From Patescibacteria group bacterium (GTDB lineage Bacteria; Patescibacteriota; Minisyncoccia; Minisyncoccales; PEYH01): a stretch of 49,208 bases of DNA. Where the stretch lies: the NCBI GenBank assembly GCA_018900835.1, contig JAHIFQ010000005.1:1-49208 (forward strand). Reading direction: 5' to 3'. The notes beneath the pieces are model-generated. The model had not been told where the DNA came from. It was given only the letters and a program-made list of their open reading frames with translations, and ran no database searches. The translations under genes were made by a program, and so were the position numbers. Positions 18 through 6,345 of the stretch are shown in pieces. The stretch's first letter is position 1. Every line of letters begins with the position of its first letter.

Positions 18-173
18 TTATCCTTTTATAAAATCCTTTTGTAGCCTTTTTATCTCTTTTTTTCCTAATTTATTGGCTTCTTCTAAGTCTTTTTGAGACT
101 TTTCATAAACAAAATAATAAAATGGTAATAAAATGGTGTCAACCCTGGTTTTCCATTGTCTTTTCGCTTTGGC
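18..173 (-). pseudogene. short open frame without a start codon, possible gene remnant
   Basis: Read on the minus strand, this stretch gives about 51 codons that look protein-like (…FVYEKSQKDLEEANKLGKK…, then a stop at 18-20). A stop codon lies just upstream and there is no ATG, GTG or TTG in frame. The C-terminal half is helical, charged and rich in Glu and Lys. It may be the decayed 3' end of a gene whose 5' part was replaced by the repeat motif at 131-226. I do not recognise a family, and chance coding appearance is possible. Confidence 0.25.
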
Positions 174-226
174 TCAATTTGTTATCTTAAAAAATAGTAT
201 TAAAAACCAGACCTGACACCATTTTT
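131..226. repeat. inverted pair of TGGTGTCA-type motifs
   Basis: Two copies of a roughly 24-bp motif face each other. One is at 131-154 (AAATGGTGTCAACCCTGG…) and one, reverse complemented, at 202-226 (…CCAGACCTGACACCATTT). Related copies lie at 3346-3370 and 4531-4554, so the motif brackets and punctuates the radC-to-nuclease block. The pair could fold into a hairpin beyond the end of radC. Copy 131-154 read on the minus strand contains TTGACA (137-142), followed after 17 nt by TATTAT (114-119), which is a good sigma-70 promoter reading out of the window's left edge. Confidence 0.5.
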
Positions 227-264: not shown

Positions 265-966
265 CTATAAATTACCTTTTTCAGCAAAACTGTAATAATT
301 ATTTCTAGCAACTATCATATGATCGCTCACTGATATGCCTAAAATCCTACCCGCCTCAACCAGTCTCTTTGTCGTAAAAATGTCCTCTTCTGATGGCGTA
401 GGATCTCCTGATGGATGATTATGCGCTATGACAACATAAGACGCATTCTTTAATACTGCATCATTAAACACCTCTCGTGGATGGACAATACTTGCGTTCA
501 GAGACCCAACGGATACATTATTAACTATTAGCTTATTTCTTGTATCAAAGAACAAAATTGCAAAATGCTCCTTTTTTTCCTTGCCTATCTTCTCCTTAAG
601 AAATTCAAACAACATCTGGGGCGTGTTTAACTCTTTCTTTAAATTAATTTTTTCTTTTGCATATATTTCCAAAATATTTTGGAAGAGATTAACGCCAATC
701 GCATTTGATGGACCAATCCCATCAATTTGCATAAGTTCATCAATTGACGCATCAAGCACTCCGACTATACCATTGAATTTTTTAATAGCTTCTTTAGCCA
801 TGGGCTTGCAGTCTTTACGAGGCGTATTGAGGGTCAACAATAATTCTATTACTTCATAATCTGCAAAACCATTCAGCCCAGATTGTAAAAATCTCTCTCT
901 GAGTCTTTTTCTATGTCCAGCACTTTTATATTTTGAGCCATCTGTGCTTACCATAAAATTTATCAC
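265..966 (-). CDS. radC: RadC family protein (JAB/MPN domain)
   Basis: This 233-residue protein has the two parts of the RadC (DUF2466) family. The N-terminal half carries helix-hairpin-helix DNA-binding signatures (IDGIGPSNAIG). The C-terminal half is a JAB1/MPN metalloprotease-like domain with the JAMM pattern: Glu in PREVF, then H182-N-H184 and D195 in HNHPSGDPTPSEED. Length is normal. The first codon is a GTG at 964-966 that overlaps the TGA stop of the upstream helicase gene; an ATG at 952-954 is the alternative start. The overlap implies translational coupling with the helicase. The biochemical role of RadC is not established, the old DNA-repair assignment was withdrawn, and the family is common on mobile and defence-associated DNA. 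That context fits here. Confidence 0.9.
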   Translation of the reverse strand: MINFMVSTDGSKYKSAGHRKRLRERFLQSGLNGFADYEVIELLLTLNTPRKDCKPMAKEAIKKFNGIVGVLDASIDELMQIDGIGPSNAIGVNLFQNILEIYAKEKINLKKELNTPQMLFEFLKEKIGKEKKEHFAILFFDTRNKLIVNNVSVGSLNASIVHPREVFNDAVLKNASYVVIAHNHPSGDPTPSEEDIFTTKRLVEAGRILGISVSDHMIVARNNYYSFAEKGNL

Positions 967-2873
967 TTATCTAAACTGATTGATTCGCCAGAGCTCGAAC
1001 CATACCTTATATTTTTATTTGAATTTTCTGATAATCTGTCCTTAAAATATTGTTGCGTTTCTGGATCAACACAATAAATATAACAACCATTCATCCCTCT
1101 GGTCATTAGTGTTCTGTAGGTATTTTTTATTATACTATCAGCTATCCTACCTGCTTTGATCGGACTTTCTTTAATTAATCCATTCAATCCCCTTAAAGAT
1201 CTATCAGTTATTGCCCGTTTTGTCGGATCTGTTACTACTTTTCCCTCTCTTATAATAAAATCAGCTCCTATAATTACCCCTACATAATCAAGGTCTAGTC
1301 CTTGACATGTATGGATACAACCAACTTCAGTAACAGATTCAGGATGGACTAGCCAAGCTTGTCCATGTTCTGTTAAATTCCAAGTAGCTTGGTAATCACC
1401 AATGACTATATCTTTTAATCCTGGATCTCTTTTACTAATCCACTTCCAACAATAGCCCGCAACTATTCTAGATTTATTGTTATGTTTATTCCTGATGATA
1501 ATTTCATTGTGTAGTGATCTCACGTCATCAAATATTTTAAAATCATAATCAATACCTTCTAATGTCTCATTGGCGGTTTCTTTAATTTGCAATAGATTAT
1601 CTAACCATGGCAAATAGCCATCGTCACCACTACATCTAAACTGAGAAGCGAGCTCCATAAAGTTTACATTCGCGCCTAATTTTTTAGCCCAATTCGAAAT
1701 TTCAGATTCTCTTCCTATGTCTTTCAGCGTCACTCTTTGATCTTCATCGATAAAAAATATACTAAATTTTGTTGCCTTAATTAGCTCCATGATTTGATTT
1801 TCGCCTAAATTGCCCATAAAACCGCCCTGTTTCGTAATCCTATGTGCTTCATCTATTATTAGAGTATCAAATATATTAGGTTCGAGATCCAGAAAAGAAT
1901 CTGACGACCTAAACAAATTTGAAATCCTTGTGTGAGTGAATACGCCAGATAATTTTACTTGGAATACTCTTCTCGGTGCTGCATTTTTAGTAACATAACT
2001 CACATTATTTTCAGTTTTTTTATTTATTAATTCAGAAAGCAAATTAATTGCAACAACCGATTTGCCGGTACCAGGACCACCACGAACTATTAAAACATTT
2101 TTATTGTAGCTGGTTGATAGCTTGGCGAGCTGCAATGCTTTCTCATAAACAATTTTCTGATCGTCTATTAAAATAAATTCTTTTTTATTTTTTTTCAACA
2201 TTGCAGCCAGACTATCTGCTAACGCCTTGGATGGTCTTATTTTTCCATTTTCGATTGAATATAAAGATTCCTTATTATCACCATATTTAACGAATTTCTT
2301 TATAAAGTTTTGAAGTTTCTCGCAATCTGACTTAAAAAATACTGGTGCTTTCTTTGTATATTCTTTATAAAAATCATTTTTAATAACATTGTCCTCTTGA
2401 TAATTATGGAGGTAAGCACATGGCTCAATAAAAATATGTTTTTCTTGAACTTCGCTATTATAATCTTCGAGAAGAGTCGCGTAAGACCAAGCCTGGTATG
2501 ATGGATGCTCAACATCGCCATAAAATTCGGTATTTACAATACCGTCCATATTAGTAACAGAAATGCTCTTACTCCACTGTTTTAATTCAATCAAAACTAG
2601 CACTGGCTTATTATCTTCGTTTTTTCCAGTGATAATAAAATCAATCCTTTTAGAAGTAGAAGGAATTTTATATTCTATAGCGATACCTACATCACCGGGT
2701 ATCTCAGAAACTTCCATAACCCTTCTCATGTATGGTAATGAATTTCTAAATGCACTAATTTGGGCAGGCGCTGGTCGATAACCAACCTCTCTAACAAATG
2801 ACACCTCTACTGTTGTGGCAATATCAACATCTGCCATGAACTCATTTTTTGTAGATGAATAAATAACTGCCAT
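963..2873 (-). CDS. PD-(D/E)XK nuclease fused to a DUF2075 (Schlafen-type) helicase
   Basis: The protein is 636 residues in two modules. Residues about 55-135 match a PD-(D/E)XK nuclease core: E67, D78 in RIDFIITG and E96-L-K98 in LVLIELKQW. Residues about 250-620 are a superfamily-1-like P-loop helicase of the DUF2075 type. It has Walker A at 265-272 (GGPGTGKS), Walker B at 339-344 (IIDEAH) and a QFR motif at 411-413. Such proteins act on nucleic acid ends or invading DNA, but the exact substrate is not known for this subtype. The gene starts 2 nt after the MazG stop and ends inside the radC start, so the three genes form one operon. The pairing of nuclease-helicase with nucleotide pyrophosphohydrolase suggests antiviral defence, which is inference. 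Confidence 0.85.
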   Translation of the reverse strand: MAVIYSSTKNEFMADVDIATTVEVSFVREVGYRPAPAQISAFRNSLPYMRRVMEVSEIPGDVGIAIEYKIPSTSKRIDFIITGKNEDNKPVLVLIELKQWSKSISVTNMDGIVNTEFYGDVEHPSYQAWSYATLLEDYNSEVQEKHIFIEPCAYLHNYQEDNVIKNDFYKEYTKKAPVFFKSDCEKLQNFIKKFVKYGDNKESLYSIENGKIRPSKALADSLAAMLKKNKKEFILIDDQKIVYEKALQLAKLSTSYNKNVLIVRGGPGTGKSVVAINLLSELINKKTENNVSYVTKNAAPRRVFQVKLSGVFTHTRISNLFRSSDSFLDLEPNIFDTLIIDEAHRITKQGGFMGNLGENQIMELIKATKFSIFFIDEDQRVTLKDIGRESEISNWAKKLGANVNFMELASQFRCSGDDGYLPWLDNLLQIKETANETLEGIDYDFKIFDDVRSLHNEIIIRNKHNNKSRIVAGYCWKWISKRDPGLKDIVIGDYQATWNLTEHGQAWLVHPESVTEVGCIHTCQGLDLDYVGVIIGADFIIREGKVVTDPTKRAITDRSLRGLNGLIKESPIKAGRIADSIIKNTYRTLMTRGMNGCYIYCVDPETQQYFKDRLSENSNKNIRYGSSSGESISLDK

Positions 2874-2875
2874 AA

Positions 2876-3226
2876 TTAAAGTTTATTATATTTAGTATGG
2901 CTACCCTTAGTTTTTTCAACTGGATATTTTCTTTCATTCTTTGTAACCTTTTTCTCTTCAGCCGCAACAATATCTATTCCTAAGTCATGTGCCATGATAA
3001 GAAGATAATTCAACACGTCAGCAAGTTCTTCTGCAATTTCCTCTTTATTTGTTTTTACATATTCATTAATCTCAGATTCACTCTTCCATTGAAAATGTTC
3101 CAAAACTTCAGATGCTTCGATAGACAAAGAAACAGCCAAGTCTTTTGGCTTGTGAAATTGTTTCCAATCCCGTGCATCGCGGAAAGCAATTATTCTTTTT
3201 GTTAAATCATTAATATTTTTAACCAT
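2876..3226 (-). CDS. MazG-like nucleotide pyrophosphohydrolase
   Basis: The protein has 116 residues, about the size of a single-domain MazG/dUTPase-like all-alpha NTP pyrophosphohydrolase. The metal-binding pattern is present: E37 and E40 (SIEASE) on one helix and E67 and D70 (EELADVLNY) on the next. The family hydrolyses (d)NTPs to monophosphates and pyrophosphate. The Lys-rich C-terminus (VEKTKGSHTKYNKL) is typical of short MazG proteins. It is the first gene of the run MazG, nuclease-helicase, RadC, with a 2-nt gap to the next gene. In that setting it may deplete or sanitise nucleotides during phage attack, but ordinary house-cleaning is equally compatible with the sequence. Confidence 0.88.
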   Translation of the reverse strand: MVKNINDLTKRIIAFRDARDWKQFHKPKDLAVSLSIEASEVLEHFQWKSESEINEYVKTNKEEIAEELADVLNYLLIMAHDLGIDIVAAEEKKVTKNERKYPVEKTKGSHTKYNKL

Positions 3227-3254
3227 ATTATTTATTTTAATTATTCCATAATAC

Positions 3255-3285
3255 CAAAAAATCGCTCAAAAAGCGATTTTTTGGA
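3255..3285. terminator. hairpin between MazG and the EVE-nuclease gene
   Basis: A perfect inverted repeat, CCAAAAAATCGCT / AGCGATTTTTTGG, with a 5-nt loop lies in the 167-bp gap downstream of the EVE-nuclease gene. The T-run is part of the stem, so it could terminate in either direction. It probably separates the nuclease transcript from the MazG operon. Confidence 0.6.
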
Positions 3286-3345
3286 CTTCTCAACTGCGCA
3301 ACACGCCCTCTCCCCCATTATTCAAAATGTTTTCAAAATGTTTTC

Positions 3346-3370
3346 AAAAACCAGACCTAATACCATTTTT
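3346..3370 (-). repeat. TGGTGTCA-type motif, internal copy
   Basis: AAAAACCAGACCTAATACC…, preceded by a doubled TTTTCAAAATG, is a diverged copy of the motif at 202-226. It lies between the MazG operon and the EVE-nuclease gene, just downstream of the latter. Confidence 0.45.
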
Positions 3371-3393
3371 TTCATTTTCCCATTCTTTTGATT

Positions 3394-4497
3394 TTAAATT
3401 TGGTCTAGACCAACCATTTTCCCGATTGTCTTCAAGCGATCACCGTCAAAGCACGATACTCCTAGTTTCAAAGAATTTATAAATTTAATATAATTAGGAT
3501 TTCGTGGCTCTTCTGAAAAAGTTAGGTTTTTGAAAGCAGGAAGCTCTTTAAGTTTATTCTCTTCATAGAACTTTTTTACTTCAAAATATTCATATTCAAA
3601 AAGTTGCACAATGCCTTTTCTTGATTGACTAATAAAATTTTTATTTTTAAAACTTTTAACTTCGAACAAATAAGATCTTTCGGGATTCGTAGCAAATAAA
3701 TCAATGCGTTGGTTGCAATAAATTCTGTAACCTTTACTTTTAAATAAATTTCTAAGTCTTTCTATGGTATTCTGGTGAGCTTGATTAGCTCTTTCGAGAA
3801 GTATGTTGTCGCGAACATATATAGATTCTGCTTCCATGTGGTTTATTACTTTATTTTTTATATCTTTCAAAATGAACAAACTGGTTCCGTATCTGAAAAC
3901 ATCCTCTTTTTTTTCAAATTCTAAAAAGGGAGATTGTGCATATATTTCGCTCTCTTTCCGTGAAGATCCAATTATAAAAAGATTATTAGAACAAGCAAGA
4001 ATTTGTTCAACAATATCATCTCTAACGCCGGAAAACGAACCCATAACTGGAAAGCCAGGAACTTGTTTAAGGGGAACCGCTTTTGCAAGTAACTGCGCCA
4101 CAAATCCCTCTATCTGTTTTAAATTATTAATTGTTACATCGGGTAAATCTTGGGACAAAAAAAATGGACTAAAAAGATAAATCTCCGAGAAAGGAACAAG
4201 TAGGGGCCACTTATTGATAGCTTTCTCTCTTTCTTCTATCCATAAAAATTCTTTTTTCCTTATCTTGCCCACATCTCCCACCACGCCAAATCCTATAATA
4301 GCCGGCCTGGCATTCTTCAAAAGCGTATTAGTAGACATAGAATGCATTAAAAACAAATCCCCTGGCATTATCTTCTGCCAAGTAGACAGATGCTTTTCTT
4401 CAAGCCCCCAAGTCATATGCTTGATTGCCGTAATCCAATTCTCTGGAGAACCTGTAAATCTAAAAAATTGTTTTCTGCCAAAATAATCCTTTAGCAT
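3394..4497 (-). CDS. EVE/PUA-like domain plus PD-(D/E)XK endonuclease, putative modification-dependent restriction enzyme
   Basis: The protein has 367 residues. The N-terminal about 115 residues look like an EVE/PUA-like domain (FFRFTGSPENWITAI, W40, PGDLFLMHS, AIIGFGVVGDV), the fold that reads modified bases in type IV-like systems. The C-terminal part, about 235-310, has a PD-(D/E)XK core: D266 in RIDLFATN, E279-V-K281 in YLFEVKS and a downstream Q298-L-F-E-Y. This order, base reader then nuclease, is that of modification-dependent restriction endonucleases. There is no methyltransferase partner nearby, which fits a type IV enzyme. The gene lies between tRNA-Gln and the MazG operon, with a hairpin after it. 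The EVE assignment rests on motif resemblance only; the nuclease core is clearer. Confidence 0.7.
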   Translation of the reverse strand: MLKDYFGRKQFFRFTGSPENWITAIKHMTWGLEEKHLSTWQKIMPGDLFLMHSMSTNTLLKNARPAIIGFGVVGDVGKIRKKEFLWIEEREKAINKWPLLVPFSEIYLFSPFFLSQDLPDVTINNLKQIEGFVAQLLAKAVPLKQVPGFPVMGSFSGVRDDIVEQILACSNNLFIIGSSRKESEIYAQSPFLEFEKKEDVFRYGTSLFILKDIKNKVINHMEAESIYVRDNILLERANQAHQNTIERLRNLFKSKGYRIYCNQRIDLFATNPERSYLFEVKSFKNKNFISQSRKGIVQLFEYEYFEVKKFYEENKLKELPAFKNLTFSEEPRNPNYIKFINSLKLGVSCFDGDRLKTIGKMVGLDQI

Positions 4498-4530: not shown

Positions 4531-4554
4531 AAATGGCGTCAACTCTGATCTTTT
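4531..4554 (-). repeat. TGGTGTCA-type motif, tRNA-proximal copy
   Basis: AAATGGCGTCAACTCTGATC… matches copy 131-154 in core and orientation. It sits between the start of the EVE-nuclease gene and tRNA-Gln. On the minus strand its TTGACG (4537-4542) could serve as a -35 box for the nuclease gene. The nearest TATAAT-like box (in TATATAAT) is farther away than the usual 17 nt, so that role is weak. Confidence 0.4.
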
Positions 4555-4589: not shown

Positions 4590-4660
4590 TTGCGGGGCTT
4601 GGATTCGAACCAAGATAGCGGCCTCCAGAGGGCCGTGTCCTACCGTTAGACGATCCCGCA
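4590..4660 (-). tRNA. tRNA-Gln (anticodon CUG)
   Basis: A cloverleaf folds on the minus strand. The acceptor is TGCGGGA/CCCCGCA, with the U1-A72 pair typical of glutamine tRNA and one A7·C66 mismatch. The D-arm is GTCT…GGAC, the anticodon stem CGGCC/GGCCG with loop CTCTGGA (anticodon CTG), and the T-arm CTTGG-TTCGAAT-CCAAG. CCA is not encoded. The gene marks the boundary between the accessory block to its left and the ftsX-ftsE-prfB core to its right, and tRNA genes are common integration sites. Confidence 0.92.
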
Positions 4661-4745: not shown

Positions 4746-5654
4746 TTAGGCTGTCAAATATTTTCTAATGGCAATCAAGCTGGAGATTACTCCCAGCGCA
4801 ATTCCGCTTGCAAGTTGAGCGAAGAATAAACTAAATGCCCGCGCCTTGAACCACGAGAATACATTGAAGCCATTGGTCATCGCATCGAGCTTGGGAGCGA
4901 GAAAATAGCTGACCAAAAGCAGGATAAAGAATGATGCCAAGGCAGCAATAGCTCCGGCAATCATGCCCTGCACAATAAATGGACCTCTTATAAAACGATT
5001 TGGGGCGCCGACTAAGCGCATAATGGAGATTTCCTTGCTCGCGTCGTAAATCGCCACCCTGATTGTATTAAAAGCCACCAGAACAGCCACTACTCCAAGA
5101 GCCAATGCCAACAAAAGTCCTCCTGTGTTAACATTGGTTATAAAACTGGTGAGTTTTTCTATAACTGTTTTTTTCTCCACATAATCCACTTTGTAAATAA
5201 CATCATCAAGAGAAGAGCTGTTTAAAATTTCTAATATGGCTGCGTATTGTTCCGGGTCATTTGCCCTTATATTCAACGAAGCGTAAAAAGGATTGGTTCC
5301 GACAATATCCAAAGAATCCAGCAAGACCGGGTCGTTCTTGTGCCTATCTCTGAATTGTTCCAAAGCATCTTCTTTGGAAACAATGCTCACTGCCTGAACT
5401 TCCGGCATTTCAGCCAATCTATCTTTTATCATTACCATTTCTTCGTCGCTTGTTTCAGGCGTCATATAGACGCTGATGTCTATCTTTTCTTTTATCTGGG
5501 TGATTATGTGTTTTACAGCGCCCTCGGAAATGAAAAGGGTTGTAATTAAAGTAATGGTCACAATTAAAACAAACACAGTGGCTACATTTAAGCCCCCGGC
5601 TCTCCAAAAATTATGCCATCCAAAACGGATTACTCTTCTTAAAAATGTAAACAT
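4746..5654 (-). CDS. ftsX: cell division protein FtsX
   Basis: FtsX is the membrane subunit of the FtsEX complex, which couples divisome ATPase cycling to control of peptidoglycan hydrolases. The protein is about 302 residues with the family layout. One membrane segment near the N-terminus (VATVFVLIVTITLITTLFI) is followed by an extracytoplasmic domain of about 100 residues. Three further membrane segments follow in the C-terminal half, ending with ALGVISSLIAIRKYL. I chose the ATG at 5654, giving MFTFLRRVIRFGWHNFW. It starts 4 nt after the ftsE stop, while the longer frame to 5690 would overlap ftsE and adds an uncharacteristic polar lead. It forms an operon with ftsE and prfB. Confidence 0.93.
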   Translation of the reverse strand: MFTFLRRVIRFGWHNFWRAGGLNVATVFVLIVTITLITTLFISEGAVKHIITQIKEKIDISVYMTPETSDEEMVMIKDRLAEMPEVQAVSIVSKEDALEQFRDRHKNDPVLLDSLDIVGTNPFYASLNIRANDPEQYAAILEILNSSSLDDVIYKVDYVEKKTVIEKLTSFITNVNTGGLLLALALGVVAVLVAFNTIRVAIYDASKEISIMRLVGAPNRFIRGPFIVQGMIAGAIAALASFFILLLVSYFLAPKLDAMTNGFNVFSWFKARAFSLFFAQLASGIALGVISSLIAIRKYLTA

Positions 5655-5658
5655 ATTA

Positions 5659-6345
5659 TTATAATATAAATCTGCCTTTTTCTTCATCACGGATGATTTC
5701 GCCGTTGTCTAAAGTAATCACCCGCCGACCCAAGCTGTTTATTATCGCCTTGTCATGAGTAGAAAGAATCACAGTTGTGCCCAAATCATATATTTTCTCA
5801 AGCAAACTGATTATATCCCTCGTATGATACGGGTCAAGATTGCCAGTCGGCTCGTCAGCAATAATCAATTCCGGCCTTACAGCCAAAGCTCTTGCAATGG
5901 CTGTGCGCTGTTTCTCTCCTCCGGAAAGCCCGGGCGGAAAATGTTTTGCTCTGTCTTCCAACCCCACAATTTCCAAAAGCCGTGGCACATCTCTCAAAAT
6001 TTCGTAATCAGTAGCTCCCATTACTTCCATTGCATAAGCCACATTTTCAAAAACTGTTTTATTGGGCAAAAGCCGATAATCCTGAAACACGCACCCGATT
6101 TTTTGGCGAAACGACGATAAGTCCTTATTCTTTATTTCCGAGATATTTTTCCCGCTATAAATTATCTTTCCACTGGTCGGCTCTTCTTCGCGCAAAAGCA
6201 ATTTGATAAGAGTTGTCTTTCCTGCGCCGGATTTTCCCACAATGGAAACAAATTCTTTTCCATTTGCCCTAATTTGAAAACTGACATTTTTTAATGCCAC
6301 TGTGTCTGGCTTATACATCTTGCTTATATTCTCAAAAAAAATCAT
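5659..6345 (-). CDS. ftsE: cell division ATP-binding protein FtsE
   Basis: FtsE is the ABC ATPase partner of FtsX at the division site. In its 228 residues all motifs are seen: Walker A at 37-45 (GKSGAGKTT), Q-loop in VFQDYRLL, signature LSGGEKQR at 140-147, Walker B with D164-E165 ([11 protein letters not shown]) and the switch histidine H197 (STHD). It lies 6 nt downstream of the prfB stop and just ahead of ftsX. The order prfB-ftsE-ftsX is widespread in bacteria, so this is ordinary core synteny. Confidence 0.96.

Follow-up and report, generated by a model that had tools for sequence, protein, structure and literature searches.

We analysed a 49,208-nucleotide (nt) stretch of DNA from a Patescibacteria group bacterium, which is the whole of contig C5 (JAHIFQ010000005.1) in a genome of 655 kb in 20 contigs (GCA_018900835.1) and is called the window below. 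Beside its glutamine transfer RNA (tRNA-Gln) gene lies a MazG-type pyrophosphohydrolase gene paired with a nuclease-helicase gene, hereafter HEL; this pair recurs widely, and at related loci MazG is the constant part while the nucleases next to it vary. From the sequences, we read the locus as a possible restriction-like anti-invader module that is exchanged horizontally and occupies a tRNA-Gln hotspot; in this module MazG would clear modified deoxycytidine triphosphate (dCTP). We put this reading forward tentatively and with slightly more doubt than belief.

Leftward from tRNA-Gln, the EVE-nuclease, MazG, HEL and RadC genes follow one another on the minus strand:

4746-5690, minus strand: ftsX, conserved core flank and anchor for the comparison with sister genomes
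4590-4660, minus strand: tRNA-Gln (CTG), where the variable region meets the core
3394-4497, minus strand: EVE-PD-(D/E)XK protein, putative, 367 amino acids (aa), from weak family matches and a nuclease motif
2876-3226, minus strand: MazG, all-alpha nucleoside triphosphate (NTP) pyrophosphohydrolase of the DCTPP1/RS21-C6 type, 116 aa, from PF12643 and the alignment of relatives
963-2873, minus strand: HEL, PD-(D/E)XK plus superfamily 1 (SF1) SLFN-g3 (DUF2075) helicase, 636 aa, from PF09848 and an AlphaFold model
265-966, minus strand: RadC family JAB protein, 233 aa, from NF000642, PF04002 and the JAMM-like residues HNHPSGDPTPSEED

The operon core runs from MazG through HEL to RadC, with a 2-nt gap between MazG and HEL and a GTG start codon of RadC that overlaps the HEL stop by 4 nt. 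The EVE gene lies 167 nt upstream of MazG, with a dispersed repeat in between, and is a separate neighbour of this operon, not part of one fixed unit. Family matches confirmed all four minus-strand genes named in the initial annotation, a tRNA call confirmed tRNA-Gln, and the spacing bore out the tight linkage of the last three genes. The grouping of the four as one system was not supported: MazG and HEL form the widespread pair, to which a subset of loci add RadC, and the EVE-nuclease is an alternative MazG partner that recurs without HEL. As the window begins at base 1 of the contig, the block can be followed only up to the contig end and not to its outer border.

Of 147 related genomes, six had full HEL, one of them the window's own genome, while RadC was present in 37 and the EVE protein in two; no sister genome of the genus had HEL or the EVE protein, as expected of accessory, patchily distributed genes. 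MazG neighboured HEL in all six cases. A phylum sample of 380 genomes contained HEL in 20, of which 18 had MazG as the direct neighbour of HEL, one had it one gene away and one lacked it; a scan of 84,980 species genomes returned at least 566 HEL relatives. In the 80 of these loci closest to the window, MazG lay within 600 nt on the same strand in 64, or 67 when an intervening gene or HEL fragment was allowed for, a fraction that may differ in the whole family because these loci were picked by similarity to the window. They span candidate phyla, Desulfobacterota, Bacteroidota, Proteobacteria, Verrucomicrobia, Nitrospira, Elusimicrobia and others. The adjacent pair also occurs on a haloarchaeal plasmid. 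In a haloarchaeal plasmid, too, MazG converges on a weak relative of the EVE-nuclease, with an overlap of 4 nt; on a Priestia plasmid, a DUF3578 protein (a McrB-type modification sensor) precedes MazG-HEL within a defence island. The linkage of MazG and HEL, with or without RadC, on whose recurrence elsewhere the initial annotation had made its case depend, is thus recurrent. A MazG-HEL pair with a HEL 52% identical to that of the window is also found in a 22-kb record deposited as Microcystis phage Mwe-JY31 (PP438423.1). No plasmid copy of the locus was found at the DNA level.

The nucleases found directly beside MazG comprise PD-(D/E)XK-helicases, EVE-PD-(D/E)XK and EVE-HNH proteins, helicases whose alternative N-terminus reads like GIY-YIG, and a type II-like restriction endonuclease. 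MazG directly precedes EVE-PD-(D/E)XK in genomes G034, G233 and G391 and EVE-HNH in G299; G034 and G233 were found by EVE queries and were therefore not selected through MazG. RadC-MazG-EVE operons are present in G034 and G391 and a RadC-MazG-endonuclease operon in G084, and HNH and PD-(D/E)XK genes follow MazG-nuclease loci in G034, G116 and G427. Comparison with the closest relative, a Daviesbacteria locus, gave protein identities of 86% for HEL, 63% for MazG and 58% for RadC, and DNA identities of about 88% in HEL and about 65% in MazG and RadC; the shift in DNA identity at the gene borders indicates that the nucleases are exchanged as cassettes. HEL and MazG distances were only weakly correlated (r=0.30, 84 pairs; permutation maximum 0.12), and this weak co-divergence is easier to reconcile with an enzymatic guard than with an antitoxin that binds its cognate partner.

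The constancy of MazG beside varying sensor or nuclease proteins would also suit abortive infection, in which HEL or the EVE protein would sense infection and MazG, as the effector, would destroy dCTP or another NTP and stop replication; MazG likewise stands among the predicted, unvalidated defence domains in Fig. 6F of the DefensePredictor paper (PMC13092281). We consider this quite unlikely, given that the variable partners have intact nuclease motifs and would themselves be effectors, that no regulatory domain is evident in a stand-alone enzyme of the DCTPP1 type, and that the weak co-divergence speaks against a tightly gated complex.

Other proteins recur at these loci. A family of ~375 aa ('HY.DTIKNK') with a PADLOC match to type II restriction endonucleases stands directly after MazG at L074:7948-9093 and L079:7434-8555, with no methyltransferase seen next to it at either locus. 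An HNH-type protein ('QRGMNF..NP.YSVILMS') recurs in MazG-nuclease loci (L072:7016-7711, L076:9917-10618, L218:4812-5549), and a weak reverse-transcriptase match lies directly after the RadC-MazG-EVE operon of G391 (L232:6584-8374).

The order of ftsX followed by tRNA-Gln(CTG) is kept in nine other genomes, and in the window the core genes ftsX, ftsE, prfB and lepA occupy the right side of the tRNA. Other restriction systems occupy the tRNA-Gln site in two of three sister genomes. The G001 site holds a type I-like restriction-modification locus with a serine recombinase, an XRE gene, RadC, an N6-methylase/HsdR_N protein, HsdS and an OLD-like ATPase, and the G003 site an MvaI/BcnI restriction endonuclease with a LexA/S24-methyltransferase; G002 has small membrane proteins there and G004 core isoprenoid genes, neither with a restriction system. 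Since the content beyond the tRNA differs from genome to genome, with restriction-modification genes in G001 and G003, the site is a restriction-system hotspot within the genus, which partly supports the candidate defence island of the initial annotation.

The serine recombinase at the G001 site would suit a view of the block as mobile-element cargo, with anti-restriction or transfer functions and with RadC and the nuclease-helicase serving the element's own establishment instead of host defence. We regard this as very unlikely: no integrase, relaxase or phage gene lies within the visible block, RadC is missing from most MazG-HEL loci, and HEL has only six weak relatives in 2.9 million viral contigs and four in 50,697 phage records. 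We rejected a viral origin, given the same six weak HEL matches and the lack of any EVE-protein relative in these viral contigs. A tRNA-derived attachment-site (att) duplication would leave part of the tRNA 3' end repeated, but no such 12-mer was found within the window. The G001 recombinase itself is flanked by inverted copies of tRNA 3'-end sequence (L083:9198, 10877). At the G003 site (L262:1538-4101), the MvaI/BcnI enzyme adjoins a fusion of a LexA DNA-binding domain, S24 and an N6/N4 methyltransferase, so that this restriction system is apparently wired to a LexA-like switch.

The role that we propose for MazG rests on its family. The protein matches PF12643 (E=1.5e-20), and a profile built from nine neighbours scored 83 bits over 111 residues against DCTPP1/RS21-C6. 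Residues E37xxE40, E67xxD70, W21 and W47 are invariant in nine relatives, giving the ExxE...ExxD metal motif of all-alpha NTP pyrophosphatases, and the acidic metal-binding residues and two Trp are common to MazG and DCTPP1/RS21-C6. By sequence, MazG is a DCTPP1/RS21-C6 homologue and so belongs to the (5-methyl-)dCTP pyrophosphatase family; dCTP and modified dCTP are substrates of DCTPP1 (PMC7162842).

HEL matches the whole of the SLFN-g3 helicase model PF09848 (positions 1-354, E=3e-100), with Walker A GGPGTGKS and DEAH motifs, and its N-terminal PD-(D/E)XK-type residues D78 and E96-x-K98 are invariant in 27 aligned relatives. The AlphaFold model (predicted local distance difference test, pLDDT, 86) had human SLFN11 as its top PDB fold match (template modelling score 0.34), followed by RecD and Dna2; scores of only about 0.3 mark likeness to a fold class, not a full homologue. 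A C-terminal LexA/UmuD-like Peptidase S24 domain, absent from HEL of the window, is borne by ~51 of the 80 relatives (L084-L163; confirmed by Pfam for one protein), and in 46 of these proteins it has A/C-G, Ser and Lys residues that look like a self-cleavage site. RadC (209.4 bits against NF000642, cut-off 180; E=6e-43 against PF04002; JAMM-type metal motif present) joins HEL only in a subset, in candidate-phylum bacteria wherever the group is named, and stands before or after HEL within the operons. S24 was never found on RadC-linked HELs (11 to 0 against 48, Fisher p=3e-5), an exclusion that phylogeny explains as well as function does, because the loci with RadC stem from a small number of related lineages and candidate-phylum genomes account for only two of the S24 cases. 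This hints at damage-triggered control through S24 in most bacteria, with a possible RadC-based alternative elsewhere.

The resemblance of the HEL model to RecD, RecD2, Dna2 and SLFN11, and the link of the S24 domain to the DNA-damage response, would equally suit a mobile repair or nucleotide-hygiene cluster without a defence role, in which HEL would act in RecD/Dna2-like repair, MazG would clean deoxynucleotides and RadC would aid recombination. The flanks of HEL loci, only moderately rich in known defence families, count for the same view; 93 PADLOC models were matched by 125 flanking proteins and three by 32 control genes of the window, an enrichment that we treat as weak because it counts models, not proteins, and its control is one genome. 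Patchy presence, a hotspot occupied by restriction systems and the substitution of restriction-type nucleases for HEL next to MazG would be unusual for repair genes, and we judge this explanation unlikely. With restriction systems at the same variable site in relatives but only modest flanks, the defence function proposed in the initial annotation is kept here as an inference.

The EVE-PD-(D/E)XK protein is a predicted modified-base-dependent endonuclease, with EVE-like residues at about 10-130 and the nuclease motif D266 ... E279-V-K281, which is kept in four PD-(D/E)XK members; a fifth, from G299, shares the N-terminal domain and has HNH at the C-terminal end instead. Several observations, along with the modest flanks, weigh against the anti-invader reading. 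The match of this protein to PRK00809 is weak (residues 18-135, E=5e-5, 22.9 bits, below the cut-off of 139), as are those to PDDEXK_9 (E=0.01) and to its only PDB hits, two UPF0310/EVE structures (E=0.014 and 0.077), and its single-sequence model reached a pLDDT of 32. HEL, which might also read modifications, shows no modification-reading domain. No MazG lies within about 1.3 kb at 13 of the 80 HEL loci, and His38, a pocket residue of DCTPP1, is not conserved in MazG.

In the anti-invader reading, the nuclease cassettes (HEL; EVE-PD-(D/E)XK) would attack foreign DNA, and MazG would hydrolyse modified dCTP, such as 5-methyl- or 5-hydroxymethyl-dCTP. Modified bases, which would expose host DNA to the nucleases, would thus be kept out of it, and/or MazG might strip the phage of modified precursors, preventing full protection of its genome. 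In some candidate-phylum bacteria, RadC may be an operon accessory that processes nucleic acids or has a regulatory role; a LexA-like S24 domain on the nuclease-helicase is often found in relatives elsewhere. Type IV enzymes use EVE domains to read modified bases, and E. coli McrB has DUF3578 in place of EVE (PMC7641849). MutT pyrophosphohydrolases adjoin SauUSI homologues (PMC7641849), and the MutT-type Orf135 is a 5-methyl-dCTP hydrolase as well, a parallel to the MazG-nuclease pairing that we count in favour of MazG as a guard. More broadly, and as a rather doubtful generalization, modification-sensing or related nucleases might travel with their own modified-dCTP pyrophosphatase as a metabolic antitoxin that bars the triggering base from host DNA, with MazG as the chassis, the nucleases as plug-ins and RadC or S24 as a second layer of control.

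Two further features of the window concern short repeats:

3246-3375, no strand: dispersed repeat separating MazG from the EVE gene, an inverted repeat plus a motif copy
131-224: two inverted copies of the motif AACCAGACCTGACACCATTT (131-150, minus strand; 205-224, plus strand)

The initial annotation had the block bounded and divided by this motif. Its copies at 131-150, 205-224 and 3349-3368 (plus strand) are real, three against 0.12 expected; the fourth, at 4531-4554, has at least four mismatches and was not recovered at three or fewer. Seven of the ten copies in the genome sit in three other contigs (C1, C4, C15), with no match to the reversed motif as control, and a role as island border is ruled out by this dispersal. 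The repeat at 3246-3375 combines a perfect 13-bp inverted repeat (3254-3284) with the copy at 3349-3368, and a similar repeat lies upstream of an NYN-type gene on C1. Variants of the motif contain TTGACA, and the copy at 131-150 has TTGACA and an 11/12 sigma-70-like site (142-114, minus strand), suggesting a possible promoter within the repeat. Motifs of a similar kind lie near tRNA-Gln of G003. On C15 (L006), two PD-(D/E)XK-like genes stand beside another copy; members of their family also follow MazG-nuclease loci in G034 and G427.

In open-access papers we found no description of the MazG-HEL pair, for which a prior description is possible, and nothing relevant on MazG with DUF2075, RadC, Schlafen or S24; the main text of the DefensePredictor paper names neither DUF2075 nor RadC (PMC13092281), and the word MazG does not occur in the text of the EVE survey (PMC7641849). 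If our reading is true, the pair would be a widespread defence family covered by PADLOC 2.0 only through distant relatives (PDC-S41, Nhi and AbiO), and bacterial MazG/DCTPP1 enzymes would have a role in immunity. The host would then afford modification-dependent nucleases by policing its precursor pool, not by methylating its DNA; MazG would be predicted to prefer C5-modified dCTP, and its loss to make the nuclease toxic upon salvage of modified cytosine.

Among known systems, the PADLOC candidate PDC-S41 (657-position model) matches HEL residues 2-299 (E=1.6e-17, 61 bits); the nuclease region and the start of the helicase are alike, but PDC-S41 is a one-gene candidate without MazG and a distant relative from a different family. 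Nhi (E=9e-11, 39 bits, a match confined to the helicase core at model positions 133-329 of 470), which is thought to detect phage single-stranded-DNA-binding protein (SSB; PMC12904381), and AbiO (E=6e-12) resemble HEL in combining a nuclease with an SF1 helicase from the same broad class. Both are single-gene defences, whereas HEL has an N-terminal PD-(D/E)XK domain, a MazG partner and, in many relatives, S24. Human SLFN11 shares the SLFN-g3 helicase (PF09848), but HEL has a PD-(D/E)XK-type N-terminus in place of the Schlafen core (AlbA-like) domain, for which it gave no Pfam match at E<=0.1. The EVE-PD-(D/E)XK and EVE-HNH type IV enzymes (PMC7641849; VcaM4I, PMC7897488) have the architecture predicted for the 3394-4497 protein and its G299 variant, and the window protein differs in adjoining a DCTPP1-type MazG and in its weak EVE scores. 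Human DCTPP1 and mouse RS21-C6 resemble the window MazG in sequence and metal site, whereas the latter is a bacterial operon partner of nucleases.

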